The translations under genes were made by a program, and so were the position numbers. Below, in pieces: positions 13,821-48,617 of a stretch of DNA of 64,000 bases (position 1 is its first letter; each line of letters begins with the position of its first letter). Source of the DNA: Hanleya hanleyi (lineage: Eukaryota; Mollusca; Polyplacophora; Lepidopleurida; Hanleyidae); the NCBI GenBank assembly GCA_036873755.1, contig JAVTVY010017394.1, positions 1-64,000 of the forward strand, in the 5' to 3' direction. The notes beneath the pieces are model-generated. The model saw only the letters and a program-made list of their open reading frames with translations. It did no database searches and had not been told where the DNA came from.

Positions 13821-13831
13821 ACCCCTATTGT

Positions 13832-27012: not shown

Positions 27013-27018
27013 GTTTTC

Positions 27019-29044: not shown

Positions 29045-31675
29045 AACCACACAATTCAGGCTGCGTGCTTTCTCCAGATCTGTCTTTTCGGTCTGCCCCC
29101 GCTGGAAATGTCTGCACCTCAATATATAGTGTGCACTCTCCACACCCGAAAACTCCCCACCGGAAGTGTCCTCGCAAACGGAGACGTTTCGCCTGCAATG
29201 AAAGATCGTCTCTCACAGCGAAATTACAGTTCATAGTCCATAAACTAGAACGGCATCCCAATCTAGAACCTGTAGAGAATATTTCACGTAAATGGCAACT
29301 CCTATCTTGCTCTGGTAAGCGAGAAATACGGGGGAATCCATTTCCGTACACTGCCTTGTTCCTCGCTGACGATACATGTCAAGGTCGTTCCCCGCATTCC
29401 ATTCTGGGTCACCCTCCATATTCAAACTGTTCTCTACACAAACGGTTAACCGTTACATACGCACACTCACCATTGTCTTATGTTTATGTCTTATCATTGC
29501 CTGATCGGTACGAAGACCAGATGTGAACACCCGATATTGCTGTACGATGGCATTCTGTAACATCATAGTGAGCAAGTGTAGTACATGTAATTATATAGGC
29601 TCTTAAAATGTTTGTTTTTTTTAAATTCCTGAATTTCTGAATAATAGAGGCTACTAACTACAACCTAATTTTAGGCATTTTCCCGGATTGGTTTTGGGAT
29701 TAGTTTTTCCTGATGAAAAAAAAAGAAAATACAAAGGTATGGGCCTCCTCCTAAAGAAAATATAGAAAATCACCTCCTAAGGCAAACTGTATAAGAACAC
29801 ACACACGCACACATCCACACACACAAACACACATCACCGCCATACATCACCACCACAACCGCCTAATCCCTCCACGACACATTCACAAACATCCACCCAA
29901 GCACACACATCGACCAGGTAGCCAGATCGAACATGGTCCACAAACGCACTCTTGTGCATCCACAAAACTACAACACAGTGGGAACTTACAAGAAGTTCGG
30001 TGCAGAGTAACTCAAGATATCTTTCCGCTAAGGGACGGACATGCGGACGGACGAACAACGCAAAAACCATAATGCCACCTCGAAAAAAGTCGACTAGGTA
30101 TAACAATAAAATCCGTGCCTGATCAGTTCTGTGGAGACCAAAGGATCAAACCTGTCCCTTCACATGTGCACTTGATTGGTGAAATGTTTTTAAGGATACG
30201 TATCCCTTCTGAGACAGTTTTGTACACCTCTTGATAACCGGTCTTCTGTGGCAATAAATATTCATCGAAACAATAATAATGTGTATATTTTATGAATGCC
30301 TGAGCAATTCACTTATGTGATTTACAAAACACTCGCTACTAAAGATTACAAAATACTCAAAATGTGAAAATGTAAATGTAGATAAAATGAAAACAATAGC
30401 CTCCATCTTTCAATTGAAATTTCATGAAACCTTTCAACATATTTAAAAGTTGATGGTATACCTAGATCAAAGACAGCTAGAACTAGTAAACGGCGTCGCA
30501 GATTTTTCTAATTTCTGCCTAGTTCTATTGTTATAAAATGAATTCACAAAAACCTTACAAGTTGAATACTAAGCCGAAGAATTTCACAAGAGTAGCTCAT
30601 ATACTTTTCGAGAAATACGAGTTCAAATCTTGAATTTTTTCAAAACATGAAACTGCTTGAAATCAGTCAAAAATTGCTCGGCTATACAATTGAAGGAACA
30701 ATCCTAATATTTCTCATGAATTCTGTTACAAAATACATTTTGCAACCTGCCATATTTAACCTAGTCCCCAGCCTACCTACTCCAGACTATCTTTTGTACA
30801 AAATATATTCACTATAGTGGTTCAAATCCGATTTAAACTTAAACAATTAGCAAAAATTTATTAGGCTGGAAATTATCTGTTGTTCGTATGCGCCACAGCT
30901 TATCAAAACATTCTAGTATGCCTGAGCAAAAACATGTATAGTATGCGGAGAAATATAGAATTAACCATCAATATTGTATAAATATTCTCTTAGTGAATTA
31001 CATAAATAAATAGTTACATTTGTACATTTTAATGTCCTTTTATGTACCTGCAATTGTCATGTACCTCATATACATGTACAACAAAAGTGGTTTGGGTGCA
31101 GTTTAATTCAAGTTTATGTTGAAATTGTAATCGACGATATATATTATTGGCACCTGACAAAGCACTGTTTTTAACTCATTAAATCAGGCCGCGTTAGACA
31201 TCCTCGAGGCAGAGCTACATTGTGGCTGGATCGTCCAATCTAGATACACTCGAGGCCCATGGATTTTATGATTTGTCTCGTCGAAAGAGTATCAGTTTTC
31301 GGTGTATCAAACGAATTCCAGCGGAAAATTTCAATAGTTCTGTCAAAATCAATCTGTGCCTTTCCTTTAAAATAATGACGTTTTGTGCCAATCCATTTCA
31401 ATACATGCTCAGTTATTGTCGTTTCTCTCCACAAGCTTTCTCAGTTCCTCAGAAAGTGAAAACAGAATGGATGTCTTCTCGTCGCGCGAGAACTATCTCG
31501 AGCGTGACCTCGACGCTGGATCGAGAATGATCTATTGACTTACGGCATTGTGAAGAGCATTTGGGAGCTGTGCTAATTTGCACGGAAACTGTTTCCATAC
31601 GTTTGTGTGGAAATAAAGTGGATAAATAGCCAAATAACAAATTAATCTGGATATATGATGACACGGCAAATCGTC
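29045..31675. repeat. duplication A, left part (flank of the Polinton)
   Basis: It matches 48,558-51,958 closely (a few percent difference by eye), with several small indels. It continues across the Polinton into 45,261-48,254. No gene of a known family was recognised. Two open frames seen in both copies (minus 29,834-30,106 and plus 31,222-31,530) have no recognisable domain. Confidence 0.9.
31670..31675. repeat. target-site duplication ATCGTC, left
   Basis: ATCGTC directly precedes the Polinton terminus AGTAGTATAC. The same hexamer follows the right end, and is present once at the unoccupied site 51,953-51,958. Six-bp duplications are typical of Polintons. Confidence 0.95.
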
Positions 31676-32539
31676 AGTAGTATACAAAGCGTAAATTGAC
31701 GCATATTGACCTCAGAAATTTGCATAATTGAGGAGGAAATGAGGAGGTGACAGCCAATCAGAAGCGAGTAAAATTTGACCTCAGAAATTTGCATATTGGG
31801 GGCGGCCACGGGGCGGCTCTCGTCCAATCAGAAGCCAGTAAAATTTGACTGGATATATTCCTCCACGGTGATGCGGTCCTGGCGGTGATGCGGTCTGCCT
31901 CCGCGGAGAAAAAGTAGTCCCTAGAGTGGAAATACGCTGCATGGTCCGATGGGGTCGAGTGAGGTATCAAAGTGAAGCTTATCGGTTGGTGTGAATGAGG
32001 CGTGACCTTTGGACATGTATAGACTTGTTTGTCTGGGTTTTTTCCCCATGCCGCCATTGACTCCCAAACTGGTGGGTTCCAATGGCGGCATCGAGTGAGA
32101 GATCAAGGCATGTCCTGACTTGTTCTGCGTTGTACAGTTCTGCCATGCGGAGGATGGGTACTAGGATTTCGCTGACGTCCTAGTAATAAACATAATCTAT
32201 AGGTGTTGTACCGTGTTAATAGGATCAGTCTAGCATCTGTACCACCCTAGGGTCGAGCGTTTATTGTCCCGTGTATCTCCGCAGAAAATCAACAAACAAA
32301 ATGACGGCTCCAGGATGGTGTGGGGACGCCCTTTCCACATCACGGCGTCGATCCAAACCATAGCGCCATCTGCACACATTGACGCAAGGGAGACAACTCG
32401 TGTGGACCAAGGGTATGGAAATAGCCGTTTTGGGATCTAGGGGAGTTACTACTGGTCCAGTGGGGTCGAGTGATGTATCAATGTGAAACATTCGTGAAGG
32501 AGCATGTAATGGGCTGGGTGTGGCATTGAAATAGTGGCA

Positions 32540-33310
32540 TTCTGCGCATGCGCGGTGGCCCAAGTGTATGGAAATAGACGTTTTGGAGCTAGCGAAGCCA
32601 CTAATGGTCCGATGGGGTCGGGTGAGGTATCAAAGTGAAGCTTATGTGAAGGGGCATCTTACTGGACTAGCGGGTTGAAATAGCGGCATTCTGTGCATGC
32701 GCGGTGGCCCAAGGGTATGAAAATAGCCGTGTTGGGATCTAGGGGAGCCAATAATGGTCCAATGGGGTCGTATGAGGTATCAAAGTGAAGCTGATGTGAG
32801 GGGGCATCTGATGGGCTGGATGTGGGATTGACATAGTGGCATTCTGCGCATGCGCGGTGGCCCAAGGGTATAAAAATAGCCGTTTTGGAGCTAGGGGAGC
32901 CCCTCATGGTCCAATGGGGTCGAGTGACGTATCCATGTGAAGCCTAGGTGAAGGGGCATCTGACTGGACTAGCGGCTTGGGCGTTGTCACCATTCTGCGC
33001 ATGCGCGGTGGCCCAAGGGTATGAAAATTGCCGTGTTGGAGCTAGGGGAGCTAAACATGGTCCAATGGGGTCGAGTGAGGTATCAAAGTGAAGCTGATGT
33101 GAAGGGGCATCTGATGGGCTGGGTGTGGGGTTGAAATATCGGCCGTCTGCGCATGCGCGGTGGCCCAAGGGTATGGAAATAGACGTGCTGGGAGCTAGGG
33201 GAGCTACTAATGGTCCGATGGGGTCGAGTGAGGTATCCAAGTGAAGCTTATGTGAAGGGGCATCTAATGGGCTGGGTGTGCGGTAGGAATATCATTCTGC
33301 GCATGCGCAG
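32540..33310. promoter_or_regulatory. array of NRF-1-like palindromes
   Basis: Six sites of the form TGCGCATGCGCG/A occur about 150 bases apart (first at 32,543-32,554, last near 33,297; the one near 32,692 has one mismatch). The NRF-1 consensus is YGCGCAYGCGCR. The right TIR holds about seven. Binding is inferred from sequence only. Confidence 0.55.
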
Positions 33311-33317
33311 ATGCAAT

Positions 33318-33455
33318 GCGGAGCTCTCGTCCAATCAGAAGCGAGTATTTCAAATCCGCCACGGAGCTCTCGTCCAATCAGGGAGTATTTTGACCCGGTG
33401 CATTATGGGACATATCCAAGATGGCGGCACGTATGTTCAAGATGGCGGCACATCT
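33318..33455. promoter_or_regulatory. NF-Y and YY1 motif cluster at the inner TIR
   Basis: Two GTCCAATCAG boxes (near 33,329 and 33,372; NF-Y) are followed by two AAGATGGCGGC sequences (33,418-33,428 and 33,439-33,449; YY1). The cluster lies about 480-600 bases from the first internal gene on this side and has an inverted twin at 43,370-43,505. A promoter role for both ends is inferred. Confidence 0.5.
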
Positions 33456-33935
33456 GGTGTCGAAAACTGGCCATTTTTGTCGGGATGTGGTCACCTAGTG
33501 TCGAAAACGGGACCCTGTATGGGTCCCATGTCACTTCTGGTTTTCACTAAAACTACCTCCAAACCCAGAAGAGTTCCAACGTTCAACCCTCCGGGGTGTT
33601 TTCCCGCCCCCGCCCCGGCGCCCCGCAGCGCGCGCGCGGGTACTCCGGCCGCAGCGCGCGCGTCATCCCCGGCAGTGCCCACGCAGACGCATGTCAGGTC
33701 AAATGGTCACCTCCAGGTCAGACGGTCCAATATGAATAACGACAAGTTCAGCAATGTTCATACAGTTTATTATCCCCAATGTTACATCATACCCAGGCAG
33801 CAAAACAAATTGAAATATCAAACACCATGTTTTATTATTTAACGCACCGTCACATTAGCTACAAGTGTTTACTGAGCTCAAGTCAATGATCAGCATGTAG
33901 ACATAGAGAGTATGTACGGCATGTTATGGTATTCA

Positions 33936-34730
33936 TCAGTGCACGAGTGACGCATTCAACCGATGGCGGTGGTGAATCACCTTGGTAAGGAAAAATGTAA
34001 CATTGGTCACCCTCTTCACTGTCCACTTGGTGTTGGGTCGTTGTTCTTGGGCCCATCCCAAGACATCCAATTGTTCCACTTGGTCCAGCATCATCTCTAG
34101 TGACCTCCGGTTAATGATGGTAAACGGTTGGTCGTACACTGGGTGGAGGGCACTCGAATAGAAATAGCGCAATTCACCCGTCATCTTATGGCATAAGATG
34201 TACCCAAATGCTACATTTAACGTGAAGGCCGTAGGTTGGTCATTGAAGATGGTTTCCACGTAGCTGCGTAGACGGATGAGCTTGGTCAGTGGGAAATTGT
34301 AGATATCTTGAATAGGGCGATGACGGTGGAAACAGTGCCGTGTCATGGTCCAATGGCGCCGAGAGATGTCACTCTCTGGATCATATTCGGGTAAGAGATC
34401 GCTAGGAACATTTATGGGCTCGTCCAGAAAATGTTCGATGTATGGCGTATGACTCGAAACCGTAACGGTGAAGTCCGGTTGGAAATCCAGGCTCTTCCCA
34501 ACTGTGGGTGTAGGCGGGCTCTCCGTCATCGCATCACCAGTGGCGTTCGTCTCCCCGGACTTATCTTCACTGGGTCTGACCTTCCGCGGCTCCTCTTCAG
34601 TAGCAAGTTGTCGCCAAAACCGTGGAGACGGGGCATGAATCAAACGCTGATGCCGTCTCAACTGACTGCGTCGTTTGACCTCGTGACGTCTGGACCAAAT
34701 TTCAACGGGTGTTGAGCGGCGAGCTCGATG
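33936..34730 (-). pseudogene. truncated Polinton PolB N-terminal-extension gene with zinc-finger remnant
   Basis: The open frame runs from about 34,730 to a stop at 33,936. It has no ATG where a start is expected; the first possible start is a TTG at 34,661. The first residues include LRRHQRLIH, the second half of a C2H2 finger whose cysteines are lost. The last 130 residues (FTLNVAFGYILCHKMTGELR, RYFYSS, EQRPNTKWTVKRVTNVTFFL) resemble the region that precedes the polymerase in invertebrate Polinton PolB genes. This family link is from recall of the pattern and was not searched. The frame stops where polymerase sequence should follow. An AATAAA follows on the minus strand near 33,835. The 5' end abuts the broken PC4-like gene, so a deletion probably removed both starts. 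Confidence 0.55.
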
Positions 34731-35043
34731 GACACGTCACCCACATAGACAATGCCATCTACGTATACCGTGGACGTTTCTTCCCACGTCTGGGCCGCTA
34801 CCAAGATCCTACGCGAGGCTTCACCCTAGTCCCGATCTGTGGACAGCCTTGGAGAAAGTGGTGCCTATTGTGGACCATCTGTTTACACCGGACGAGCGAT
34901 CATCAGACCAGTTGGGGTGGGCTCGTGCTATTCAGGACGCGCTGGCTGAACCCCATGAACAACTGTCTAGCCATGAACCCGACGACGACGATGCCATTGA
35001 TTACCCGGCTAGACTCAGCCAGCCCAGTGACATGACCACCTGA
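34687..35043 (+). pseudogene. PC4-like gene, copy 1, 5'-truncated and frameshifted
   Basis: It matches copy 2 (35,116-35,585) from VWTKFQRVLSGELDG onward, and lacks about the first 55 residues. The order RGRFFPRLGRY, PTRGFTL, DLWTALEKVVPIVDHL fits the strand-then-helix pattern of PC4/p15 single-stranded-DNA-binding domains. The frame changes by one base (downstream frame minus 1) at about 34,825-34,835. An acidic tail ends at 35,043. The 5' end joins the truncated minus-strand gene head to head. Confidence 0.5.
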
Positions 35044-35068
35044 TCCTTTGATATCACGGGGTTGTCCC

Positions 35069-35076
35069 TATAAATA
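35069..35076 (+). promoter_or_regulatory. TATA box of PC4-like copy 2
   Basis: TATAAATA lies 40 bases before the ATG at 35,116. The same octamer stands 37 bases before the integrase ATG (35,570-35,577), which supports its use as a core promoter with a very short leader. Confidence 0.6.
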
Positions 35077-35115
35077 CGGGAGACAGTCCACTCTGGTACC
35101 ATTCACGTACTGACC

Positions 35116-35585
35116 ATGGCGGAGCATATAATACTGGCGTATCTCAGCTTGACCCCCGAGGTTTTCCTGCACGTGTATGCGGATAAGGTCGATATCATGG
35201 AGGAGGTGGGGGACATCTGTGATGCGGACCCTACACAACCGTGCCCGGCTCACATTCGTCTGTCCCGAGAGGGCTGGACCAAATTCAAACGCGTGTTGTC
35301 TGGTGAACTGGACGGCGATCTCATCCACTTGTGTCACGATGTGTATATCCGACGCGGCCCTTTCTTTGCTCAATTGGCTCGGCTAGATGGGGTACAGTGC
35401 ATTTTACCCTTCACCCTGATCTATGGTCTGCATTGGAAGATGCCGTGGTAGATGTGGATGAAGTGCTTATCAAGCGGTCATCAGACGAGTTGGACTGGTC
35501 ATTGACCATGGACACTGTGGAAGCCCACGAAGAAAATCAGAAAGAAACTCCGGCCCAAGATATATCCGTTATAAATAAGCGATAG
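35116..35585 (+). CDS. PC4/p15-like protein, copy 2, with one frame change
   Basis: The first frame (35,116-35,451) codes for MAEHIILAYLSLTPEVFLHV and a PC4-like segment with LSREGWTKFKRVL, HDVYIRRGPFFAQLAR. The continuation with FTLHPDLWSALED and an acidic tail is in the minus-1 frame and runs to 35,585. The switch lies near 35,380-35,410, around a GGGG run. PC4-type proteins bind single-stranded DNA and act in transcription or replication, which would suit an element with protein-primed replication. The assignment is based on pattern, not a search. Copy 1 also changes frame, but at another point, so a programmed frameshift is unlikely; a base loss or assembly error is more likely. Confidence 0.45.
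35570..35577 (+). promoter_or_regulatory. TATA box of the integrase gene
   Basis: TATAAATA lies 37 bases upstream of the integrase ATG at 35,614 and overlaps the last codons of the PC4-like gene (stop at 35,583-35,585). Confidence 0.6.
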
Positions 35586-35613
35586 AGCCAGGGTCCATCA
35601 TCATTGTGCCACC

Positions 35614-36686
35614 ATGAAGCGCTGGGAGAAGGTGTTGGATAACTTATACTACAGTCCCGACAGTCCGGCGGCCTATAGTGCATTGTCGGCTCTCTATCGA
35701 GCGGCCAAACCCCAGGGGATACAACGTGCCCAAGTCCGAGATTGGTTAAGAAAACAAGACACCTATACCTTACATGGATCTGTCCGTCGCCATTTTCTAC
35801 GGAACCGGGTCATCGTGGGAGGAATAGATGCCCAGTGGCAAGCGGATTTGGTCGATATGAGCGCCTTTGCCAAACACAACGATGAGAATCGGTATATCTT
35901 GACGTGCATCGATATCCTATCAAGTATGCGTGGGTGGTACCCATCCGGACGAAAACGGGGGCGAATCTCATAGCGGCGTTCAAAGACATCTTCAAGACCG
36001 GGCGCAAGCCTTTGTATTTGCAAACCGACGAAGGCACGGAATTCCCCAACAGACCGTTCCCAGCCTTTCTCAAGAAACAGAAGGTGTTTTTCTTCCATAC
36101 GTACAACGAGACCAAGGCTTCCGTGGTGGAAAGGTTCAACAGGACATTCAAAGGCCGCATGTATAAATATTTCACCTATAAGAATACAAGGCGGTACATC
36201 GATGTTCTCCCGAAACTGGTGAGGGGTTACAATCGAGCCTATCATCGGAGTATAGAGAGAGCCCCCATTACCGTGACCCAACGCAATGAAGCCCATGTCC
36301 GGCGTGTCTTGTACCCCAGGCCATCGCAGCGAACGACGAAGGCGGTGTACAAGGTCGGGGACCCTGTATGGATCAGTAAAGTCAAGGGCAAGTTCGAGAA
36401 AAGTTACTTGCCCAACTGGAGCGATGAGCACTTCCTGATTAAACGGCGCCTACCCCGACAGCAGCGAGTCTATGAACTGGAAGATCTTCAAGGGGAACCG
36501 TTGCTAGGGACGTTTTACGAGACGGAATTACAGCCTGTCGTAAAAACACAGCAAGACTACTACACGGTGGAGCAGATTTTGAAAACGGAACGTCGACGTG
36601 GCAAACTGTTTCATTTCGTCAAATGGCAAGGCTGGCCCAGTTCCTTCAATTCCTGGGTCGCTGCCAACCAGGTGAAACGACTATAA
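35614..36686 (+). pseudogene. Polinton integrase (RVE/DDE) with C-terminal chromodomain, one frameshift
   Basis: The first part (119 codons from ATG 35,614) holds the N-terminal helical region and the first catalytic Asp (ADLVDM, residue 78). A single-base loss near 35,920 moves the rest to the minus-1 frame, which runs to 36,686. That part carries the second Asp (LQTDEGTEF) and, 33 residues on, the Glu (ASVVERFNRT), the spacing usual in Polinton integrases. A chromodomain follows at the end (DYYTVEQILK, HFVKWQGWPSSFNSWV). The enzyme inserts the element and makes the 6-bp duplication. The chromodomain may steer it to marked chromatin. The break is minimal, so an assembly error is possible. 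Confidence 0.9.
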
Positions 36687-36688
36687 AG
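36682..36688 (+). promoter_or_regulatory. TATA-like box before the membrane-protein gene
   Basis: TATAAAG overlaps the integrase stop codon and lies 49 bases before the ATG at 36,737. Confidence 0.4.
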
Positions 36689-36736
36689 CCAGACACCACT
36701 GCCGTCATCCTTCATTCCACGTCCGACCACAGTGCT

Positions 36737-37315
36737 ATGGACCAACAGCAGCTGCCTCTGAAGACAGCGTCTCCCAAAACGCGCAAAGCGCAAGTGGGTT
36801 TTGTGGTGATAGTGCTAACCCTGCTGAGTGTGTTGTACGGAGGTGTGTTTTACGACGTCGCCTATGTCAGCACGTTACTTAACCAGCTGAGAACACCAGC
36901 CACCAGCGAAACCGGTCTCCAGAGAGCACCAGTCGTATCGAGCCCAGTCACCACCACCACACCCCGTGTACAAGCCACGTCGAGTGTAAGCTCTACACCT
37001 ACACCAAGAACACTCACTACGTCTCAAGACCCACCGGATTTCATCCCTCACAGTGAACAGACAACGACCACCGACGTTGTACCCACCCCCATCATCATCC
37101 CTGACAGTGTACAGACAACGACGACCGACGTTGTACCCACCACCACTCCAGTTCACTCGTACCAAATTTACAAAAGCGGGTTACCACGACAACGGATACA
37201 CCTCGAACCATGGACCCCCGTTGGCAGCATCCCTTCACGTGTCTCATCGCAGGACCGACGGGTTCCGGCAAAACGCACTTCGTCAGGAAGCTCCTTCAAC
37301 ACGCCGACAGCATGA
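36737..37315 (+). CDS. type II-like membrane protein with Ser/Thr/Pro-rich stalk
   Basis: The 192-residue product has a basic N-terminus (TASPKTRKAQ), one transmembrane segment (VGFVVIVLTLLSVLYGGVF), then about 120 residues rich in Thr, Ser and Pro with a repeated TTTTDVVPTP motif (two to three copies), a composition like a mucin stalk. The orientation is inferred: short cytosolic tail, extracellular or lumenal stalk. The last 35 codons overlap the start of the ATPase gene in another frame. I know of no named family; a virion or host-surface role is only a guess. The start is the first ATG after the TATA-like box. Confidence 0.6.
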   Translation: MDQQQLPLKTASPKTRKAQVGFVVIVLTLLSVLYGGVFYDVAYVSTLLNQLRTPATSETGLQRAPVVSSPVTTTTPRVQATSSVSSTPTPRTLTTSQDPPDFIPHSEQTTTTDVVPTPIIIPDSVQTTTTDVVPTTTPVHSYQIYKSGLPRQRIHLEPWTPVGSIPSRVSSQDRRVPAKRTSSGSSFNTPTA

Positions 37316-37818
37316 TCACCCCACCCACTGCCCGAGTCGTGTGGTGTTACGGAGAATGGCAGGCAGCGTATGCAGCAATGCCCCACATCACGTTCGTGGA
37401 AGGCCTACCCAACCTGGCCGATTTGGAACCCGACACCTTGGTGGTTCTGGATGATCTCATGGCGGAGACGGATGCGCGGGTCACCCAACTCTTTACCAAA
37501 GGCAGCCATCATCGACGGCTCAGCATCATCTACATTGTGCAGAATCTGTTCAGTAAAAACAAAGAACATCGGAACATCAGCTTAAATGCCCACTACCTGG
37601 TGGTCTTCAAAAACCCGAGAGATACCACTCAACTGCTGCACCTGGCGAGACAGATATATCCCGGCCGCACACCGTTTGCGTTGGAAGCCTTTAAAGATGC
37701 CACAACCCCTCAGCACGGGTATATGCTCTTCGACCTCAAACAAGCCACCCCCGACCACCTTCGACTACGGACCGGCATCTTTCCCGGAGAGACCCACCAC
37801 GTGTACTTGCAAAAATAA
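37210..37818 (+). CDS. FtsK/HerA-type genome-packaging ATPase
   Basis: The 202-residue protein has Walker A GPTGSGKT (residues 15-22) and Walker B LVVLDD (77-82), with a later NAHYLVVFKNPRD block. These are the marks of the A32-like packaging ATPases of Polintons and related double-jelly-roll viruses. It would drive DNA into the capsid. Length is normal for the family and the frame is intact. It starts inside the membrane-protein gene (106-base overlap), so the two are probably expressed from different transcripts or by leaky scanning. Confidence 0.9.
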   Translation: MDPRWQHPFTCLIAGPTGSGKTHFVRKLLQHADSMITPPTARVVWCYGEWQAAYAAMPHITFVEGLPNLADLEPDTLVVLDDLMAETDARVTQLFTKGSHHRRLSIIYIVQNLFSKNKEHRNISLNAHYLVVFKNPRDTTQLLHLARQIYPGRTPFALEAFKDATTPQHGYMLFDLKQATPDHLRLRTGIFPGETHHVYLQK

Positions 37819-37964
37819 TGTAAATACACCCACAGTGGCTCCCCCAGCTGGGATGTGTTTGATGATGGAGATAATAAAAAGAATGAATACCACAGCAGGG
37901 TTGACTTTGTCTCTGAGATAGATCAAAAGAGCAGAGTTGTGGGTTCTGGCATTAGTTGTACAGG
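37819..37964 (+). other. spacer with AATAAA signal
   Basis: AATAAA at about 37,873-37,878 could end the upstream transcript. It is also AT-rich enough to serve as a weak TATA element for the next gene (ATG 37,965). Confidence 0.3.
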
Positions 37965-38306
37965 ATGTCTGCGCGAGTACGGAAGCACGCTCCCACGCTC
38001 CGTGTATTGAAGACGGCCCCACCCGAGTTGGTCCGAACCATTGTACGCGGTGCGGACCCTGACCGTGTTCGCTGTCTGTGCGAGATCGGGTACAACCTGT
38101 TAAAAGGCAACGTACCACTCACTCCGGCTCAGAAGACCAAGTTGGCCAAGCATAAGACAGGTCTCCGAACCCTAGTCCGGAAGCGGGTCCCTCAAACACA
38201 AAAGAAAAAGGTGTTACAGAAAGGCGGCTTTCTCGCGGCCATCTTAGCACCGTTGGCCGCTTCCGTGTTGGGTCCAGTTTTGGGTGGACTCTTCGGCCGA
38301 CAATGA
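37965..38306 (+). CDS. small basic core-like protein with C-terminal hydrophobic Gly-rich segment
   Basis: The 113-residue product begins MSARVRKHAPTLRVLKTAPP. The middle has a conserved NLLKGNVPLTPAQKTKL block and many Lys/Arg; the end is KGGFLAAILAPLAASVLGPV, a small-residue hydrophobic helix like membrane-active peptides. Proteins of this layout are common beside the ATPase in Polintons, by recall. A DNA-condensing or membrane-active virion role is an inference. The ATG at 37,965 was chosen over an in-frame TTG at 37,956. The stop overlaps the next start (ATGA at 38,303-38,306). Confidence 0.65.
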   Translation: MSARVRKHAPTLRVLKTAPPELVRTIVRGADPDRVRCLCEIGYNLLKGNVPLTPAQKTKLAKHKTGLRTLVRKRVPQTQKKKVLQKGGFLAAILAPLAASVLGPVLGGLFGRQ

Positions 38307-39067
38307 ACCACACGAAAAAAATGGTCCTCGTCGAACCACGGTTCCTGCAAAACCTCCAATCACCCTACCCTGTCCCACCTACGGTGAAGACCATAAACAC
38401 CCTCGATGGAGAGATGCAACAGATCTTACAGAGACCGGGGTTAAGCGACAGTGAGTACAACGGTACAATGAGACGCTTCAACGGTACATGACGTTCATGG
38501 ACCAATACAAAACCCTGTCTACCCCCCCACCACCACCACCACCACGTGACAGACCGCCGACCTCAGCACCGCTCCAACAGCCACCATTACTAGTGGTACC
38601 ACCCCCAGCCCCACAGTGGGTGGAAGACGAAGTCCTGACGAGTGTACCTGCCTCGTTCAAGAAACAAGGTGGCCTGGTATTACAACGGATGAAACAGAAT
38701 CCTAACATGACTTGGAATGATAAAGGCGAACTCCTGGTACAGAATCAGGTGGTCCCGGGGACCCACATGACGGATTTAGTGAATGATCTGATGCGTCAAC
38801 GCAGGTCGCACACCGACCCAGCGCTGGGCCTTTATGCAGCGAACCCAGCAATCGCCGAGTGGCCCACTACCTTCTTGGGAAGCCGACTGGGAACCGGAGT
38901 CACCCCCCAAAACTCCACCACCACCACAACGGGCACCTTCTTTTCAAACCTTTAAAAAAGCACCCTCGATCAGGACACCCCACATATCCAGAGCCATGAC
39001 ACGTAGCAAGTCAACCCGACGAACACGACGCCGGACACAACCGCCCAAGGCCTGGAACACCTATTAA
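38303..39067 (+). pseudogene. conserved Polinton structural-region gene split over three frames
   Basis: Three open frames in a row look like one ancestral gene: 38,303-38,491 (KKMVLVEPRFLQNL, then VKTINTLDGEMQQIL), 38,488-38,955 (FMDQYKTL, a proline-rich stretch, then MTWNDKGELLVQNQVVPGTH and VNDLMRQRR), and a frame ending at 39,067 (basic tail TRRTRRRTQPPKAWNTY). The first change lies at about 38,455-38,470, where a tacaacgg motif is repeated, the second at about 38,790-38,830. The pieces resemble a conserved gene of unknown function that often sits next to the penton gene in invertebrate Polintons. The proline run PPPPPPPRDRPP may be a late-domain-like motif. Confidence 0.55.
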
Positions 39068-39100
39068 GACCAAAAGCAGCGGCAGGACAGCTCAGTCGCC

Positions 39101-39889
39101 ATGTTTTACCTCACCCTACCCAGTAACAGTTCACTGGATGTGTTTCCTGACAACACCGTCGCCAAGTATGTGACTCAATTACCACAAACGTTACATTTAC
39201 CTGGCCGGTGGGAATGTGGACTGGTGGATATTCAGTACCCTTACTCACGGTACAACGTGCGAGCCAATGAAGTGTGGTACGAGGTGACCTACGAAGGCAA
39301 AAACACCCGACTCACCCTGCCCGAAGGCCAATACGATACCCCCAAGGAGTTCATGGGTGGGCTGACAAGACTGTTGCATTATAAGGCTCTACGGGAGGTC
39401 ACGAATACTTCAAAACCCATCAAATCCTTTCCCTTCAAGAATAAAGTGGACTTCGATTACAACGCACACAACGACAAGGCACAGCTTATCGTCACCGACA
39501 AGGCGAGTGTCGTACTGAGTCCTATCCTACAGCATATGCTGGGTTTCGATCTAAAGACGTTCGCTGGTCCCACCGAACACCATGGCGAGATCCCGATGGA
39601 TATGAAGTCGGGTATGTACGGACTCTACGTCTACTCGGACGTGGTGGGCAACCACATCGTGGGCGATATCAACACACCTCTGTTACGGGTAGTCCCCATT
39701 AAAAAGACGTATGGAGATCAAGTCACCCACAGTTTCACCCACATGCTCTACTTGCCCGTTCGACAAACCGACATCAACACGATCACGGTGGATATAAGAG
39801 ATGACACGGGACGACCGGTGGCATTCGAACGCGGGAAAGTGGTGCTGACACTTCATTTTCGACAAGCACGTGCTCCCCACTTTGCATAA
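39101..39889 (+). CDS. penton-like minor capsid protein (single jelly roll)
   Basis: The 262-residue frame begins MFYLTLPSNSSLDVFPDNTV, then LPGRWECGLVDIQYPYSRYN, both typical for the Polinton minor capsid protein that forms the vertices. LSPILQHMLGF and the strand-rich C-terminus also fit. Length matches the family. It is intact and begins 33 bases after the previous stop. Its stop overlaps the next start (TAATG at 39,887-39,891). Confidence 0.9.
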   Translation: MFYLTLPSNSSLDVFPDNTVAKYVTQLPQTLHLPGRWECGLVDIQYPYSRYNVRANEVWYEVTYEGKNTRLTLPEGQYDTPKEFMGGLTRLLHYKALREVTNTSKPIKSFPFKNKVDFDYNAHNDKAQLIVTDKASVVLSPILQHMLGFDLKTFAGPTEHHGEIPMDMKSGMYGLYVYSDVVGNHIVGDINTPLLRVVPIKKTYGDQVTHSFTHMLYLPVRQTDINTITVDIRDDTGRPVAFERGKVVLTLHFRQARAPHFA

Positions 39890-40296
39890 TGAAAGTACCT
39901 TACGAGTGCGATGCACGCAGCTATATGGACTATTATGCCCAACAGGCCGGAGGTGGCTTTCCGGTCTTTAGCGGTGCACGCATGCAACGAGGACATGGAC
40001 TAGGGAGCATACTCGGCAGCATCGTCAAAACGTTCCTGCCCTTGGTGACGCGTGGGGTGAAAGCAATGGGTAAACAAGCGGTACGCAGTGGACTGGAAGT
40101 GGCCGGTGATGTCTTGGGAGGTACGGCACCCAAAGAAGCCTTGAAACGGCGGGCCAAAGAAGCGGGAGGCGTCTTGGTGGCCAAAGCACAACGCACCGTA
40201 GGGAATAAAAGAGCTGCCCCACCGAGACCACGCACCAGTCGACGACCGACCCAGCGACGACGCACATCGAAGAAGACAAAGGATATCTTTTCTTAA
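39889..40296 (+). CDS. pVI/pX-like basic virion protein
   Basis: The 135-residue product has a short head (MKVPYECDARSYMDYYAQQA), a GGGFPVFSGARMQRGHGLGS region, a hydrophobic amphipathic stretch (ILGSIVKTFLPLV) and a long Arg/Lys tail (RRPTQRRRTSKKTKD). This layout recalls adenovirus-type cement or membrane-lytic precursors, which the viral protease cuts near Gly-rich sites; no exact cleavage consensus could be confirmed here. Its place between the capsid genes supports a virion role. The start overlaps the stop of the minor capsid gene by one base. Confidence 0.65.
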   Translation: MKVPYECDARSYMDYYAQQAGGGFPVFSGARMQRGHGLGSILGSIVKTFLPLVTRGVKAMGKQAVRSGLEVAGDVLGGTAPKEALKRRAKEAGGVLVAKAQRTVGNKRAAPPRPRTSRRPTQRRRTSKKTKDIFS

Positions 40297-40299
40297 AAC

Positions 40300-41610
40300 A
40301 TGTCCTTGATCCACGCCGAGTCCTGCCCCTCCACCAACAGTGAATTTGATTTGTGGACCGTGCCGCCCACACAGACCAGTGCCGAACAAGGATTATGGGT
40401 GGAGCATCTCCCGCTCTCCAGCATCAACGAAACCGGGCCCATCGAGTTCACCATCAGTAATGCGGATACGGCCTATGTGGATTTAGCCCATACATACTTG
40501 TATGTGAAAGCCAAGGTGGTCAGTGGGGATGGCACCAGAATCGTCCAAGCTGCAACGGTGGGCCCGACGAATCTCTGGCTGCACTCGATGTTTCAACAGG
40601 TGGATGTTTTTCTCAGCGACAAACTCATCAGTGACTCGACCAACACGTACCCCTATCGAGCCTACATCGAGACCCTGTTGTCGTATGGCCGAGAGGCTAA
40701 AAAGTCTCAGCTGACAGCCGGTTTATTCTACCAGGACACACCCGAGCACATGGACACGGTGGACAATGTGGGATATAACAAACGGAAGGCTTTCACTGCG
40801 AACATTGCCTCGGTGGATATGATGGGTCGGCTGCACTCAGACATGTTCAAGCAAGACCGGTACCTCTTGAACAAGATCCCCATCAAAATCCGACTGATAC
40901 GGGCGCCTCCGACTTTCGCCTTGATGGCCACTACCGTAGACGGGCATGCAGCGGACTATAAGATTGTCATCCAAGAGGCAGTGCTGTATGTCCGAAAAGT
41001 GAAACCGAATCCAGCCGTTCAATTGGGACACATGAAAGCCTTGGAAACAAAACCAGCCCAGTACCCTATCCGACGTGTACAAACCAAAGTGTTCTCTGTG
41101 CCTGCTGGAAATATGGGCGCCAACAAAGAAAACCTGTTCCTGGGGGAACTACCCAAGCGATTGATCCTGGCCTGTGTGGAAAATACCAGTTTCAGCGGAG
41201 CCTACCCAGAGAATCCGTTTGACTTTCAACATTTCGGCATCAATTTTGTGGCCCTGCATGTGGATGGACAACAGGTCCCAGCTACGGCCTTAACACCGAA
41301 CTTTGGGCGGACGAATTTCATTCGAGCCTATCAGAGCCTGTTTACAGCCATCGGTCAAATCACCCAGGACGAAGGGAATTTCATCAGTCGGGAGCACTAC
41401 GCGAACGGATACACGTTGTTCTGTTTCGATCTGACCCCCACCTTAGAGAACGACCATCAGCTGGCCCTGGCCAAGCAAGGCAATTTACGGGTGGAAATCC
41501 ACTTTGCACGAGCCCTGGCGACCACTGTCAATGTGATCTGCTACGCCGAGTTTGACAACATCATTCAAGTGGACAACGCGCGCAACGTCCTGTGTGACTT
41601 CTCCACCTAA
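40300..41610 (+). CDS. major capsid protein (double jelly roll, hexon-like)
   Basis: The 436-residue frame is intact. The early block with GPIEFTISNADTAYVDLAHT and YLYVKAKV, followed by the LWLHSMFQQVDVFLSDKLIS block, is characteristic of Polinton major capsid proteins. The C-terminal TVNVICYAEFDNIIQVD block is also typical. These proteins form the trimeric capsomers of icosahedral particles. The gene starts three bases after the previous stop and ends one base before the protease ATG, so the four capsid-module genes are nearly contiguous. Confidence 0.92.
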   Translation: MSLIHAESCPSTNSEFDLWTVPPTQTSAEQGLWVEHLPLSSINETGPIEFTISNADTAYVDLAHTYLYVKAKVVSGDGTRIVQAATVGPTNLWLHSMFQQVDVFLSDKLISDSTNTYPYRAYIETLLSYGREAKKSQLTAGLFYQDTPEHMDTVDNVGYNKRKAFTANIASVDMMGRLHSDMFKQDRYLLNKIPIKIRLIRAPPTFALMATTVDGHAADYKIVIQEAVLYVRKVKPNPAVQLGHMKALETKPAQYPIRRVQTKVFSVPAGNMGANKENLFLGELPKRLILACVENTSFSGAYPENPFDFQHFGINFVALHVDGQQVPATALTPNFGRTNFIRAYQSLFTAIGQITQDEGNFISREHYANGYTLFCFDLTPTLENDHQLALAKQGNLRVEIHFARALATTVNVICYAEFDNIIQVDNARNVLCDFST

Positions 41611-41611
41611 C

Positions 41612-42085
41612 ATGGATACAGACCAGATAACCACCGTGCTGGAGAATGACCCAGAGACACGTATGGTCTTTCAAGGGGTGTTCGCCCGACATGTGTTCCC
41701 ATTAGACCGTATGTATCCTGCTGCTTACGTTCTCAACACGGACCCGATGGATCGACCCGGTGAACATTGGGTGGCCGTGTACTTGACAGAACAGCAGGGC
41801 GAATACTTTGACCTGTACGGCCTGCCACCCCTCCATCCCGATTTAACAGACTTCATGGATCAAGGCACAGAGACGTGGTGTTGGAACAGTCAAACGTTGC
41901 AAAGCCTGACCAGTAGCGTGTGCGGACAATATTGCTTGTTTTACCTGTACCATCGATGCCGGGGAAGACCCTTATCTACCATCGTACAGATGTTTGACGA
42001 GTACCCCAAGGCCGAGGACCGCGATGTACTCGTCTATGACTGGGCCGCCCATCATTTCAATGTACAAGCCCCGTTCTGGGCTTAA
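41612..42085 (+). CDS. adenain-like cysteine protease
   Basis: The 157-residue protein shows GEHWVAVYL (His52), an acidic FDLYG (Asp67), Gln97 seven residues before the nucleophile, and SSVCGQYCLFYL (Cys104). This is the order and spacing of the Ulp1/adenain (C5-type) proteases that mature adenovirus and Polinton particles. The frame is open further upstream, but the ATG at 41,612, one base after the capsid stop, is the natural start. The 3' end of the gene (VQAPFWA) has been duplicated downstream as a chain of small hairpins. Confidence 0.9.
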   Translation: MDTDQITTVLENDPETRMVFQGVFARHVFPLDRMYPAAYVLNTDPMDRPGEHWVAVYLTEQQGEYFDLYGLPPLHPDLTDFMDQGTETWCWNSQTLQSLTSSVCGQYCLFYLYHRCRGRPLSTIVQMFDEYPKAEDRDVLVYDWAAHHFNVQAPFWA

Positions 42086-42210
42086 GTTAATTACAAGCCC
42101 GCTGTTCTGGGCTTAAGTTTACAAGCCCCCTGTTCTGGGCTTCAGTTTACAAGCCCCTTGTTCTGGGCTTCAGTTCTTTCAATGTACAAGCCCCTTGTTC
42201 TGGGCTTCAG
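42063..42210. repeat. five tandem AAGCCC...GGGCTT hairpin units
   Basis: The last codons of the protease (TACAAGCCCCGTTCTGGGCT) are the first unit. Four more follow at about 42,091, 42,120, 42,147 and 42,184, each able to form an AAGCCC/GGGCTT stem with a loop of about 6-8 bases. The fifth is preceded by tttcaatg as in the gene itself. They lie between the stop and the AATAAA at 42,249, so they would form stem-loops in the mRNA 3' end. Function unknown. Confidence 0.85.
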
Positions 42211-42248
42211 TTTTCACGTGGTTGTTCTCACGTTGTTGTTCTTCACTG

Positions 42249-42254
42249 AATAAA
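42249..42254 (+). terminator. polyadenylation signal AATAAA after the capsid module
   Basis: AATAAA lies about 165 bases after the protease stop, downstream of the hairpin chain. A TGTGTTTTATT stretch that may serve as the GU-rich element follows at about 42,290. Confidence 0.55.
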
Positions 42255-42371
42255 AAACAAAATGAGATCTCACCAAAAAAACCTGTCTTGTGTGTTTTAT
42301 TCATAATGCATCAATGCCCAATGTGGAGATTCAGTCAAACTGAAATAAGTGGTGTAGGATGGGGCCAAAAT

Positions 42372-42745
42372 GTAACCCATCAATGTTAGAATGCAAGAGC
42401 ACTATAGTAAAAATAGAGAGCCAATGAAATCAGCCTACAGACCAAGTACGTGTTTTTGGTCTAGGTTTGGAGCGGGCATTTCATTGAGGTACATGTATAC
42501 GGTGAGTGAAGAGACTCGTCCAACACGTATAGATTAAGTTTATGACTATAAGTTCTATGTAACCCATCAAGGTTAGAATGCAAGAGCACTATAGCAAAAA
42601 TAGAGAGCCAATGAAATCAGCCTACAGACCAAGTACGTGTTTTTGGTCTAGGTTTGGAGCGGGCATTTCATTGAGGTACGTGTGTACGGTGAGTGAAGAG
42701 ACTCGTCCAACACGTATAGATTAAGTTTATGACTATAAGTTCTAT
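42372..42745. repeat. 187-bp tandem duplication
   Basis: Two near-identical units start at 42,372 and 42,559 (gtaacccatcaatgtt and gtaacccatcaaggtt). A third, short start (gtaacccatcc) appears at about 42,814. The unit has no open frame of note. Confidence 0.85.
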
Positions 42746-42907
42746 GAGCATAATGCATGAAACTGGCTTTGAACACCGTATTAGCCAATCAGTGGCCTAG
42801 AATGGAGCCAAAGGTAACCCATCCATGTCCAGAAAACATTACCTGGGTGTACAAGAACCCAGATGTAGGCGCGGACGTTAGCGAAAGCACACCGTGAGTA
42901 CCCCAAT

Positions 42908-42990
42908 TCGATTGGCTGATTGTTCGACCGCTGATTGGTTCTTTTTCTCGACCGCTGATTGGCTCTTTTTTCTCGACCACTGATTGGTCC
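42908..42990 (-). promoter_or_regulatory. four CCAAT boxes about 24 bases apart
   Basis: ATTGG (CCAAT on the minus strand) occurs at 42,911, 42,934, 42,958 and 42,983, each in a tcgaccgctgattgg-like unit. The cluster lies just inside the right TIR. No gene starts nearby on the minus strand, so its target is unclear. Confidence 0.5.
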
Positions 42991-43086
42991 AAATGGACCT
43001 GCCCATATTTCCCAGGTTCATTTACAATCCCCTTTTTGGGGTTCAAGCTCTGACTATAGCGATGCCGCAACATTGTCTCATTGGAC

Positions 43087-45260
43087 ATTGGACCGTTTGA
43101 CCTGGAGGTGACCATTTGACCTGACATGCGTCTGCGCGGGCACTGCCGGGGATGACGCGCGCGCTGCGGCCGGAGAACCCGCGCGCGCGCTGCGGGGCGC
43201 CGGGGCGGGGGCGGGAAAACACCCCGGAGGGTTGAACGTTGGAACTCTTCTGGGTTTGGAGGTAGTTTTACTAAAAACCGGAAGTGACATGGGACCCATA
43301 CAGGGTCCAGTTTTCGACACTAGGTGACCACATCCCGACAAAAATGGCCAGTTTTCGACACCGGATGTGCCGCCATCTTGAACATACGTGCCGCCATCCT
43401 GGATATGTCCCATAATGCACCGGGTCAAAATTCTCGCTTCTGATTGGACGAGAGCTCCGTGGCGGATTTGAAATACTCGCTTCTGATTGGACGAGAGCTC
43501 CGCATTGCATCTGCGCATGCGCAGAATGATATTCCTACCGCACACCCAGCCCATTAGATGCCCCGTCACATAAGCTTCACTTTGATACCTCACTCAACTC
43601 CATCGGACCATTAGGAACTCCCCTACATCCCAAAACGTCTATGCGCATGCGCAGAAGGGTGACAACGCCTGAGCCGCTAGTCCAGTCAGATGCCCCTTCA
43701 CATAAGCTTCACTTGGATACCTCACTCGACTCCATCGGACCAATAGTAGCTCCCCTAGCTCCCAACACGTCTATTTCCATACCCTTGGGCCACCGCGCAT
43801 GCGCAGAAGGCCGATATTTCAACCCCACACCCAGCCCATCAGATGCCCCTTCACATCAGCTTCACTTTGATACCTCACTCGACCCCATTGGACCATGAGT
43901 AGCTCCCCTAGCCCCAACACGGCTATTTTCATACCCTTGGGCCACCGCGCATGCGCAGAATGGTGACAACGCCCAAGCCGCTAGTCCAGTCAGATGCCCC
44001 TTCACCTAGGCTTCACATGGATACATCACTCGACCCCATTGGACCATGAGGGGCTCCCCTAGCTCCAAAGCGGCTATTTTCATACCCTTGGGCCCCGCGC
44101 ATGCGCAGAATGCCACTATGTCAATCCCACACCCAGCCCATCAGATGCTCCCTCACATCAGCTTCACTTTGATAACTCATACGACCCCATTGGACCATTA
44201 TTGGCTCCCCTAGATCCCAACACGGCTATTTTCATACCCTTGGGCCACCGCGCATGCGCAGAATGCCGCTATTTCAACCCGCTAGTCCAGTAAGATGCCC
44301 CTTCACATAAGCTTCGCTTTGATACCTCACCCGACCCCATCGGACCATTAGTGGCTTCGCTAGCTCCAAACCCTTGGGCCACCGCGCATGCGCAGAATGC
44401 CACTATTTCAATGCCACACCCAGCCCATTACATGCTCCTTCACGAATGCTTCACATTGATACATCACTCGACCCCACTGGACCAGTAGTAACTCCCCTAG
44501 ATCCCAAAACGGCTATTTCCATACCCTTGGTCCACACGAGTTGTCTCCCTTGCGTCAATGTGTGCAGAGGGCGCTATGGTTTGGATCGATGCCGTGATGT
44601 GGAAAGGGCGTCCCCACACCATCCTGGAGCCGCCATTTGGTTTGTTGATTTTCTGCGGAGATACACGGGACAATAAACGCTCGACCCTAGGGTGGTACAG
44701 ATGCTAGACTGATCCTATTAACATGGTACAACACCTATAGATTCTGTTTATTACTAGGACGTCAGCGAAATCCTAGTACCCATCCTCCGCATGGCAGAAC
44801 TGTACAACGCAGAACAAGTCAGGACATGCCTTGATCTCTCACTCGATGCCGCCATTGGAACCCACCAGTTTGGGAGTCAATGGCGGCATGGGTAAAAACC
44901 CCAGACAAACAAGTCTATACATGTCCAAAGGTCGCGCCTCATTCACACCAACCGATAAGCTTCACTTTGATACCTCACTCGACCCCATCGGACCATGCAG
45001 CGTATTTCCAGTCTAGGGACTACTTTTTCTCCGCGGAGGCAGACCGCATCACCGCCAGGACCGCATCACCGTGGAGGAATACATCCAGTCAAATTTTACT
45101 GGCTTCTGATTGGACGAGAGCCGCCCCGTGACCGCCCCAATATGCAAATTTCTGAGGTCAAATTTTACTCGCTTCTGATTGGCTGTCACCTCCTCATTTC
45201 CTCCTCAATTATGCAAATTTCTGAGGTCAATATGCGTCAATTTACGGTTTGTATACTACT
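43087..45260. repeat. right terminal inverted repeat of the Polinton
   Basis: It is the inverted copy of 31,676-33,731, ending CGGTTTGTATACTACT at 45,260. It holds about seven NRF-1-type palindromes (first near 43,508, last near 44,382), the YY1 and NF-Y sites, and one more 150-bp unit than the left side, which explains the length difference. Confidence 0.95.
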
Positions 45261-45687
45261 ATCGTCCATGACCTTCATACGTCCATGTGGCTATGTCACT
45301 TTGCTCTATCGCCGATTGTCATCTTGTGGTGATACCTGGCACGGGGTGGGATGGATCAATCTCAGTAAACTAAGACGCAATATCAAGGAGTGGAACATTA
45401 TATCTTACACCAAAGCAACCTTAATCCCGTGCGAGATAAGCCAGTTAAAAAAATAAACCCTTCGTCCCAAACAGGTGGTGATACAACACATAAATATCAC
45501 CCCTTGTAATTACAGACAGGATGAAAATAGATAAACAATATCCAAATAAGGATTTGCTGGCACCGATTACTCAGCTTGTATTGGAACAATAGACCATCTC
45601 GCGCAAATTATACATATATCTCAGGAGCCGCGGAGGACTTTTGAAAGTGGGGAGGGCGGGGGGGAGGGGGGTTGCTGAACTCTATAC

Positions 45688-46430
45688 TATGGTGTTCTAT
45701 TTGTGCCAAGTTTCCGTCGCCTTTTAAAAACGCGACGTCGCCTTTTAAAACGCGACGTCGCGTTTCTTTCCTATGTTTTTGCGTTGTAAAACTCGACAAC
45801 GGAACTCGACGTCGCGTTTCAAAGGCGACGTCGTGTTTCACCCGTCTTGTTTGGCAATGTTAAAAGATAGGAAAGAAACGCGACGTCGTTTAAAGAGCGA
45901 CGTCGCATTTCAAAACGACGTCGCGTTTCCACGCGTCGCCTTTGAAACGCGACGTCGCCTTTCGAACGCGGCGTCGCCTTTCGAATCGCGTTTCGAAAGG
46001 CGACGTCGCGTTTCGAGAGGCGACGTCGCGTTTCGAAAGGCGACGTCGCGTTTCGAAAGGCGACGCGTTTTGAAACGCGACGTCGCCTTTTGAAAACGCG
46101 ACGTCGCCTTTTAAAAAACTCGACGTCGCGTTTTTAAACGCGACGTCGCGTTTCTTTCCTATCTTTTAACATTGCCAAACAAAACGTGGGTGAAACACGA
46201 CGTCGCCTTTTGAAAACGCGACGTCGAGTTCCGTTGTGTCGAATTTTACAATGCAAAAACATAGGAAAGAAACGCGACGTCGCGTTTTAAAAGGCGACCT
46301 CGTGTTTTCCAAAAGGCGACGTCGTGTTTTAAAAACGCGACGTCGCGTTTCGAAACACGACGTCGCGTTTCAAAAGGCGACGTCGAGTTTTGAAAAGGCG
46401 ACGGAAACTTGGCACAAATAGAACACCATA
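45688..46430. mobile_element. 743-bp foldback/MITE element made of CGACGTCG repeats
   Basis: The ends TATGGTGTTC and GAACACCATA begin inverted repeats of at least 40 bases. The hexamer CTATAC stands on both sides (45,682-45,687 and 46,431-46,436) and is single at 52,371-52,376 in the copy without it. The interior consists of dozens of aaacgCGACGTCGcgttt-type palindromes in both directions. Open frames rich in Arg/Asp/Val/Ala/Phe run through it and reflect the repeat. No transposase is present, so it would be mobilised in trans, if at all. Confidence 0.9.
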
Positions 46431-47445
46431 CTATACCGGCCATGTTAAATGTTGGACTGGTGCTATCTAAGATAGGACTTATAACATTGCGGTCCTAAAA
46501 AGTGAGCCGCCCGCTTCGCGGCCCCTCTATCTGATTTTATGCACGTTATATTGTTAAAATAGCACGAAATATATTCATAAACGGTTCGTTTTCAGCGGAA
46601 TTGAAAGTCGAATCAGCTATATCCAATAAAAATTTCTTAACTTGCAAAGAACACGACTGCACTGTTGGTGTCATAGGGGCTGCCATTTTGGATATTCTCT
46701 ACGTTTCTTGCGAGATCTTGATGCAGAGATAGTCTGAGGTAAGTTTCGGCTTCCTAGGCTGAAGTTTATGAATATATAGGGGCAGAATCAGTGAGCTCAC
46801 CCCCCTGCAGGCTGCGATTAAATTCGCCCGTATCCAGTCCTCAATCGCTCAGTGGACATATAGGGTTTCATCATATATTTGGGTAAGTGTAACAGCTCGG
46901 AGCAGTTCTGAGTATTTTACCCGGATTTATGTGCACATTCCTGATATGGCAATCGGGAAATTATACGTGAGTTATATATATGTATATCGGAGTATACTGT
47001 ACTGTAAAACTGCGACAAAATAGAGAATTGTATACTGGCTCATAACAGGACGTTGAAAGACCACTCGGGTGTGATTATCGAATCCTTTATAAGATAATTC
47101 ATATGCGACAATAGATCAAATCTACTGGAAACACAGAGATCAACATGAATCATCCTTCAAATCTTAAAGGTATAACTTATATCAACATGTGTGCTGAATA
47201 GCCGTCCATTCGTTCTGGTCCATCCTTAAGCGATCCAGGATGTTATATTGGCAACATATCCTAGAACAGTTGTTTCCTTAGTCTGATTGCATTGTCAGGG
47301 CCTCTATGGGCGGTAACCCCATATACTCTTCCAAGTGACGTTTGATCTTCATGGCGGACCTTCGCGTGGGATCTTCCTTCATTTCAAGCGGCAGCCGGCT
47401 ATGCTCTTCATAGATCGCCATGCTTGTTTTTCTGATGTTGAAGTG

Positions 47446-47700
47446 CTATTGAATGTAAGTCTCTTGCAAGTTAGCCTGTTTGTCACTGAGTTTTCTCTTG
47501 GTTTTCGTGGATAGACTTTCAACAATCTCTGGGACATTATCTGCATCAGCGGGATCATCTGATTCTAGCCACTCGGTCTCTCTGTTCCAATGTATATTCC
47601 TCTCGTGCCGCATCGCATCGTAGTGTCTAGTAAAACGTTCGCCCGCACTCAAAACCACAAGAATCCAAGTTGACGGCTAAACGTCATATTTTGGGTACGG
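47446..47700 (-). pseudogene. C2H2 zinc-finger remnant, copy A
   Basis: The minus-strand frame has GERFTRHYDAMRHERNIHWN, the second half of a C2H2 finger, then an acidic tail (ESDDPADADNVPEIVESL). The cysteine half (SCGFECG) is directly upstream but out of frame by one base near 47,640. The matching copy is at 53,366-53,620. Confidence 0.5.
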
Positions 47701-48208
47701 TTGATATTATAAACGTAACACAGTAACGCCCGTCAATAGGCCTCAGGCTCCTAATTAAAAAAACGTAATCTCTGCCAAAGACCAGAATTTTGCCGATTTT
47801 TTTCCGCCTTCGTTGCAACGATTAATAGAAAGCCGTTGGTACCACTGGCAAGTATTGTATTTGTTCTATTCAGCTACAAATTTTATTTCGATTCACTGCT
47901 CGATAACATGCCTCGCCGGGGCACTATTTGCAGGGCCTAGGCACTGCTTTCAGCAGGCAGAGAAAACAGCGAAATGAGCACCTCATGTGTAGAGGCGCGC
48001 ACAGCTTAAAATTTTGACGGTAAAAGTTTGACAAGAAGTTGGTCACCTTGTAGCGCTTGAAATAGACTACTTCCTGTCGAAAGATGAATGTCTAAACTTA
48101 ATTAGGGAACCAGCGAGGTACAGTTTTGTTAATACTGCCGAACGTGTAAATTATTTAGGAGTCTGATGCCAATACCTACACCACAGCGTTAGCGCATCAC
48201 TGCTAAAT

Positions 48209-48320
48209 CCAATTATCAAAAAGGGAGACAAATCTAATGTGGAGAACTACAGGCCTATTTCAATTTTAAGTGTTATTTCTAAAGTAATTGAAAGGCATGT
48301 GTTACGTCTGAACGATGATA
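48209..48320 (+). pseudogene. non-LTR reverse transcriptase fragment
   Basis: About 37 codons read NPIIKKGDKSNVENYRPISI followed by LSVISKVIERHV, the conserved start of the RT fingers region. The fragment has no neighbours from the same element. A shorter version ends at 53,739 in duplication B. Confidence 0.75.
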
Positions 48321-48617
48321 GAAAAACGCAACAGAAAGAATTTATGTAGTCGAGTATTAACAGTAAAATATTTATTTACAATACTAAAATCATATACAAA
48401 TTAAGTTAGGTCAATATAGCAAACAAATGTCAAATAAAATCTTACTGTTCAATGTTATACCTGTATATCTCTCAGAGTCCGTATCAACGTGCTAATCTCT
48501 ATCCGTGGTGAAATCGCGTTCCTGTATTTCCACAGTCAATCACGCTCAGGTGTTCAGAACCACACAATTCAGGCTGCGTGCTTTCTCCAGATCTGTCTTT
48601 TCGGTCTGCCCCCGCTG

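Follow-up and report, generated by a model that had tools for sequence, protein, structure and literature searches.

Among Polintons (also called Mavericks), the intact elements of vertebrates are described as flanked by 6-bp target-site duplications (TSDs), with (AGT)2//(ACT)2 ends, total lengths of 12,723-24,620 bp and terminal inverted repeats (TIRs) of 46-1,447 bp (PMC8097293). Defective copies make up 96% of the vertebrate Mavericks in the same source, which also names hosts where the polymerase gene of every copy is broken (PMC8097293), and Polintons with joint loss of the capsid, protease and ATPase genes are described elsewhere (PMC4028283). The element analyzed here lies in 64,000 nucleotides of genomic DNA (the window) from the polyplacophoran mollusc Hanleya hanleyi (assembly GCA_036873755.1, contig JAVTVY010017394.1, positions 1 to 64,000 of the forward strand). 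It can be identified, with good confidence, as an integrated, replication-defective Polinton of the marine-invertebrate type.

The element spans positions 31,676-45,260 (13,585 bp). It begins with AGTAGT (AGTAGTATAC) and finishes with ACTACT (GTATACTACT), both of these sequences occurring once on the plus strand of the window, and is flanked by a pair of ATCGTC hexamers (Table 1). It is contained in copy A of a duplicated region; in the other copy, B, a lone ATCGTC is found within uninterrupted sequence. Beside the junction, copies A and B are identical for 45 out of 45 bases on the left, and 100 out of 100 on the right. An ungapped comparison of the 100 bases to the left gives just 58 equal positions, because copy A holds an extra segment of about 128 bp (~31,502-31,630), which is absent from copy B. 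Copy B corresponds to the pre-insertion state, and the element entered copy A, duplicating ATCGTC.

The first-pass annotation of this DNA had proposed AG...CT ends fixed to the base, TIRs longer than 2 kb, a 6-bp duplication and a clean unoccupied site in copy B, and all these features were recovered. A deletion scar in copy B at 51,953, named there as incompatible with an unoccupied site, was looked for in the A/B alignment, and none was found. That copy B formerly held the element, and lost it through perfect excision, is extremely improbable: the lone ATCGTC is the remainder expected from such an event, of which no positive sign was found, and the explanation was rejected, as copy B shows no footprint and its flanking bases are intact. 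Integrases of the Polinton type are not known to excise precisely. A filled and an empty site in neighbouring copies provide an exact reference for the insertion of an animal Polinton, in terms of ends, 6-bp duplication and target.

Table 1. Coordinates of the element, its predicted genes and the surrounding repeats within the window.
Feature	Position	Strand	Remarks
Copy A of the duplicated region	29055..48254	+	element inside
Left TSD, ATCGTC	31670..31675	+
Left TIR	31676..33731	+	2,056 bp; AGTAGT at start; tandem array of ~153-bp units at 32,402-33,308
Terminal-protein (priming) domain of pPolB	33939..34736	-	266-codon open frame; 197 codons from first Met, 34,529
Gene X, copy 1	34679..35043	+	partial, over two frames
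Gene X, copy 2	35074..35451	+
Integrase with Chromo domain	35575..36686	+	two frames (35,575-35,973; 35,886-36,686); L029 48%, E 2e-59
Open frame, no assigned function	36476..37315	+	one match, E 0.35, not meaningful
Packaging-type ATPase	37105..37818	+	L029 60% identity, E 8e-81; Pfam matches below curated cut-offs
Small conserved open frame	37956..38306	+	L030 46%, E 1e-24; L029 38%, E 1e-15
Small conserved open frame	38455..38955	+	L030 32%, E 5e-18; L029 30%, E 2e-16
Putative minor capsid protein	39068..39889	+	named by position; L031 43%, E 5e-65; L029 37%, E 8e-52
PW-like open frame	39805..40296	+	named by position; L029 45%, E 3e-19; L030, L031, L032 also match
Major capsid protein	40297..41610	+	uninterrupted; homology to Polinton relatives
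Adenovirus-type cysteine protease	41537..42085	+	uninterrupted; L029 42%, E 6e-33; Peptidase_C5 17.4 bits, cut-off 21.3
Right TIR	43087..45260	-	2,174 bp; ACTACT at end
Right TSD, ATCGTC	45261..45266	+
Copy B of the duplicated region	48558..53739	+
Unoccupied site, lone ATCGTC of copy B	51953..51958	+	uninterrupted sequence around site

The presence of the protein-primed DNA polymerase B (pPolB) was analyzed by using the enzyme of L029, another Polinton contig, with all core genes; L030, L031 and L032 carry parts of the set. The L029 polymerase (1,409 aa, with a DNA_pol_B_2 match at E 2.9e-9) was cut into 14 overlapping pieces, and each was compared with the whole window at E <= 1e-3. Only two pieces (residues 101-300 and 201-400) match, both solely at 33,969-34,355 on the minus strand. 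The other 12 find nothing in the window at this threshold (best E 0.046, at 24.8 kb, within the retroelement region), nor is there any match for residues 301-1,409, corresponding to vOTU and polymerase. As a control, L031 and L032 were compared in the same way, and 8 of the 14 pieces detect remains of a polymerase in one or the other. The comparison with the whole window also led to rejection of the idea that the polymerase is encoded on a different strand or in a different frame. Pfam was searched (E <= 0.05) with 98 open frames of 50 aa or more, located from 33,700 to 43,200, and no polymerase family was present among 25 of the 26 families matched. Judging from the sequence, pPolB lacks its vOTU, exonuclease and polymerase parts here, and what remains is the priming domain, as an open frame. 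As no pPolB is found beyond this domain, the element is classed as a defective derivative by descent; the description as a complete Polinton, given in the first-pass annotation, does not hold for an element with pPolB cut down to its N-terminal domain and a frameshifted integrase.

An assembly error, such as a collapse or a mis-join near the array of the left TIR, could in principle have removed the polymerase from a complete element. The gap adjoins a tandem array, where assemblers fail, and the integrase frameshift could be a base-calling error; on the other hand, the priming frame and the TIR are separated by about 0.2 kb that is ordinary in sequence and contains AATAAA signals, and the duplication of gene X, with one copy partial, represents another kind of rearrangement. 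This explanation is considered improbable.

The surviving frame aligns to the N-terminus of the L029 polymerase with a tblastn E of 5e-25. It stops about 10 residues past the aligned domain, at a double stop, which is followed on the same strand by AATAAA about 100 and about 165 nt beyond. Its start is a zinc-finger-like stretch without the cysteines of L029, in a part where the alignment is weak, and its leader overlaps the partial copy of gene X. A single-sequence fold of the whole frame was discarded (predicted local distance difference test, pLDDT, 41). The modelled priming domain shows the order of strands and helices reported for Polinton priming domains, its best likeness being to the little fingers of Y-family polymerases. 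A sequence search of the PDB gave 0 matches at E <= 1. Protein searches of the viral collection, whose length range ended below full-length polymerases, gave 124 candidates, none with E <= 1e-3, and 5 candidates, none with E <= 10; a degenerate DNA pattern representing the priming domain's end occurred in 28 contigs of the same collection, none of which was accepted (best tblastn E 0.90). Fusion of the frame to the polymerase's own C-terminus was also rejected, its last residues being, by eye, unlike the C-termini of L029 and L032.

An older loss is suggested by a frame that is open and ends near the domain border, with a double stop and AATAAA signals in its own orientation; the cysteine-less start and the overlap with gene X point to damage. 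A rival explanation takes the frame for a complete stand-alone gene, and the element for a satellite-like Polinton, provided with its own primer and virion genes, polymerase-less and moved by a helper Polinton. The 197 codons from the first Met, the position of the stop and the poly(A)-type signals agree with it; movement of the element is shown by its clean ends and TSD, and a Polinton of Stylophora reportedly has its terminal protein in a gene of its own, although that element retains its polymerase gene (PMC11071308). The signs of damage listed above weigh against it, as does the integrase, which is broken too; moreover, no second copy of the same structure was seen, in searches to which the host genome did not belong. 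A stand-alone gene is therefore held to be unlikely, and the same doubt applies to a class of satellite-like Polintons that would have shed the polymerase, kept the terminal protein (TP) and virion genes, and obtained the polymerase, perhaps also the integrase, from a helper. A polymerase-less Polinton with a priming domain was not found in the literature among the titles and starts of abstracts listed, full texts being mostly outside this coverage.

Under the favoured reading of a defective Polinton, function can be sketched for a working relative, from its anatomy and the literature. The TP domain would prime replication at the AGT-repeat end, and the polymerase would copy the linear genome; the ATPase would then pack it into a capsid that matures through the action of the protease. 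Insertion of the linear DNA, with a 6-bp duplication, would fall to the integrase. In the present copy, about 3.5 kb of pPolB next to the left TIR would have disappeared, gene X would have taken part in a local rearrangement, and the element is presumably incapable of replicating alone. The loss may have occurred before insertion, which would imply dependence on a helper, or after it: both are possible. The copy combines clean ends and no replicase, yet its priming domain is still encoded by an open frame. Should the polymerase deletion recur in other copies, there would be helper-dependent relatives of Polintons; otherwise, this is one more decaying provirus.

The remaining genes lie on the plus strand, in the order integrase, ATPase, two small frames, putative minor capsid protein, PW-like frame, major capsid protein and protease. 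The two integrase frames cover residues 8-128 and 127-375 of the 381 of L029, and the gene is evidently split by a frameshift, as read from the assembled sequence; the capsid, protease and ATPase frames are uninterrupted. Support from Pfam is thin: Chromo (E 4.9e-7) is above its cut-off, while rve (E 0.04), the ATPase families and Peptidase_C5 are below theirs. PHROGs and NCBIfam gave weak integrase and ATPase matches, and nothing else. The resemblance of the genes to those of other Polintons is strong. The names minor capsid and PW are putative, following the gene order outlined in PMC8097293. The gene X region (34,679-35,585) contains two copies, whose best-matching stretch covers 39 residues with 56% identity, the first copy being partial and frameshifted; the frames tested have no Pfam match, and no match was found in L029-L032.

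For the major capsid protein, 1,652 relatives were found at E <= 1e-3, the best-scoring match being 58% identical. Among the 120 listed of these, the few named by species come from marine invertebrates (Littorina, Pecten, Patiria, Liolophura and Lytechinus). Records of the relatives carry an F54H12.2-like label, which we take to denote the Polinton major capsid protein. Prokaryote genome contigs were scanned with an alignment of 24 capsid sequences: 39 stretches matched and 4 of them encode a relative, all in metagenome-assembled genomes (two in that of an Escarpia tubeworm endosymbiont, one in that of a Bathymodiolus symbiont, one in that of a Breoghania). These probably represent animal or environmental DNA. 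In L030, a Bathymodiolus-associated contig, integrase similarity is found on both sides of the ATPase (4,427-5,412 and 7,595-8,532), the stretch that precedes it agreeing with the order in the window. Searches of the viral collection for relatives found none.

Copies A and B have the same orientation and are separated by 303 bp, for which no strong match was found elsewhere within the window. Both contain private insertions. Those of A are the element, an insert of about 744 bp, rich in palindromes, and some smaller pieces, and B has two, each roughly 0.5 kb long. The 744-bp insert of copy A (45,687-46,430) is made up of palindromic units of 20 bp; it has inverted ends and is bordered on either side by CTATAC, a hexamer present once in copy B. 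Those of copy B lie at 48,619-49,124, flanked by CCGCTGG, and at 49,340-49,865.

A tandem duplication and two haplotypes joined in assembly are both possible. The chance that A and B are two haplotypes of one locus, assembled end to end, with the element polymorphic between them, is put at about even; the orientation, the short distance, a flank divergence of 1.75%, the private insertions of both copies and the spacer all agree with it, but a recent true tandem duplication predicts much the same, and a single window cannot separate them. The choice concerns the setting, and either answer is compatible with a defective Polinton.

The time of insertion was evaluated by counting mismatches in aligned blocks of at least 30 bp. 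The TIRs, which contain tandem arrays of about 151-153 bp units and align with gaps (31,676-33,731 against 45,260-43,087), differ at 42 out of 2,039 sites (2.06%). The flanks of A and B differ at 66 out of 3,766 aligned sites (1.75%, three stretches summed), and the two values are not significantly different (Fisher p = 0.42). Because copy B is empty, the insertion cannot predate the A/B split, unless there was already polymorphism for the element, as the first-pass annotation had argued; since TIR divergence is not below that of the flanks, an insertion well after the split is not shown by the data. The divergences would fit an insertion near the split, or TIRs already unlike at insertion. 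A replication-defective Polinton, inserted around or after the A/B split, is the most likely reading. Sequences related to the TIRs and their arrays also occur at 7,188-8,556, 13,822-14,362 and 60,773-61,375. Their longer matches have 62-84% identity, and some lie in inverted orientation relative to one another; they are probably relics of related Polinton ends.

Other features were observed in the window. Direct repeats of 88-90% identity lie outside A/B, at 1,061-4,027 and 54,674-59,788, the second holding a tandem array of ~155-bp units (56,638-57,974). Long terminal repeat-like direct repeats (95%) at 20,387-28,563 surround an integrase zinc-binding domain; a reverse transcriptase frame also lies between the repeats. 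An open frame with C-type lectin and PAN domains (18,789-19,847, minus strand) is perhaps a host gene.

Compared with the animal Polinton/Maverick proviruses described in the sources cited (PMC8097293, PMC4028283, PMC11071308), the element shares the 6-bp TSD, the (AGT)2//(ACT)2 ends, TIRs, an RVE-type integrase homologue, here frameshifted, capsid proteins, and a packaging ATPase and cysteine protease, these last two with Pfam scores below cut-off. It differs in having no vOTU, exonuclease or polymerase, pPolB being represented by the N-terminal priming domain only. Its TIRs exceed 2 kb, against the range given above for intact vertebrate elements (PMC8097293), and its integrase precedes the ATPase, whereas in L029 it lies between the ATPase and the minor capsid gene. 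With the defective vertebrate Mavericks, as they are described in PMC8097293, it has in common a broken replication gene in an integrated element; unlike them, it keeps its ends, TSD and virion frames, with the polymerase cut to the priming domain. The Polintons of PMC4028283, in the account given there, represent the reverse case, their virion genes being lost, while here these are kept and the polymerase is lost. As in the split-TP Polinton of Stylophora pistillata, a terminal-protein domain is encoded apart from the polymerase, but that Polinton keeps a vOTU-pPolB gene (PMC11071308), which the window element lacks, so that it falls outside the Stylophora type, with its separate TP and vOTU-pPolB genes. 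Both the kind of element and its state are already known; it is set apart by TIRs that are long in comparison with those of intact vertebrate elements, an integrase placed before the ATPase and the unusual survival of the priming domain.

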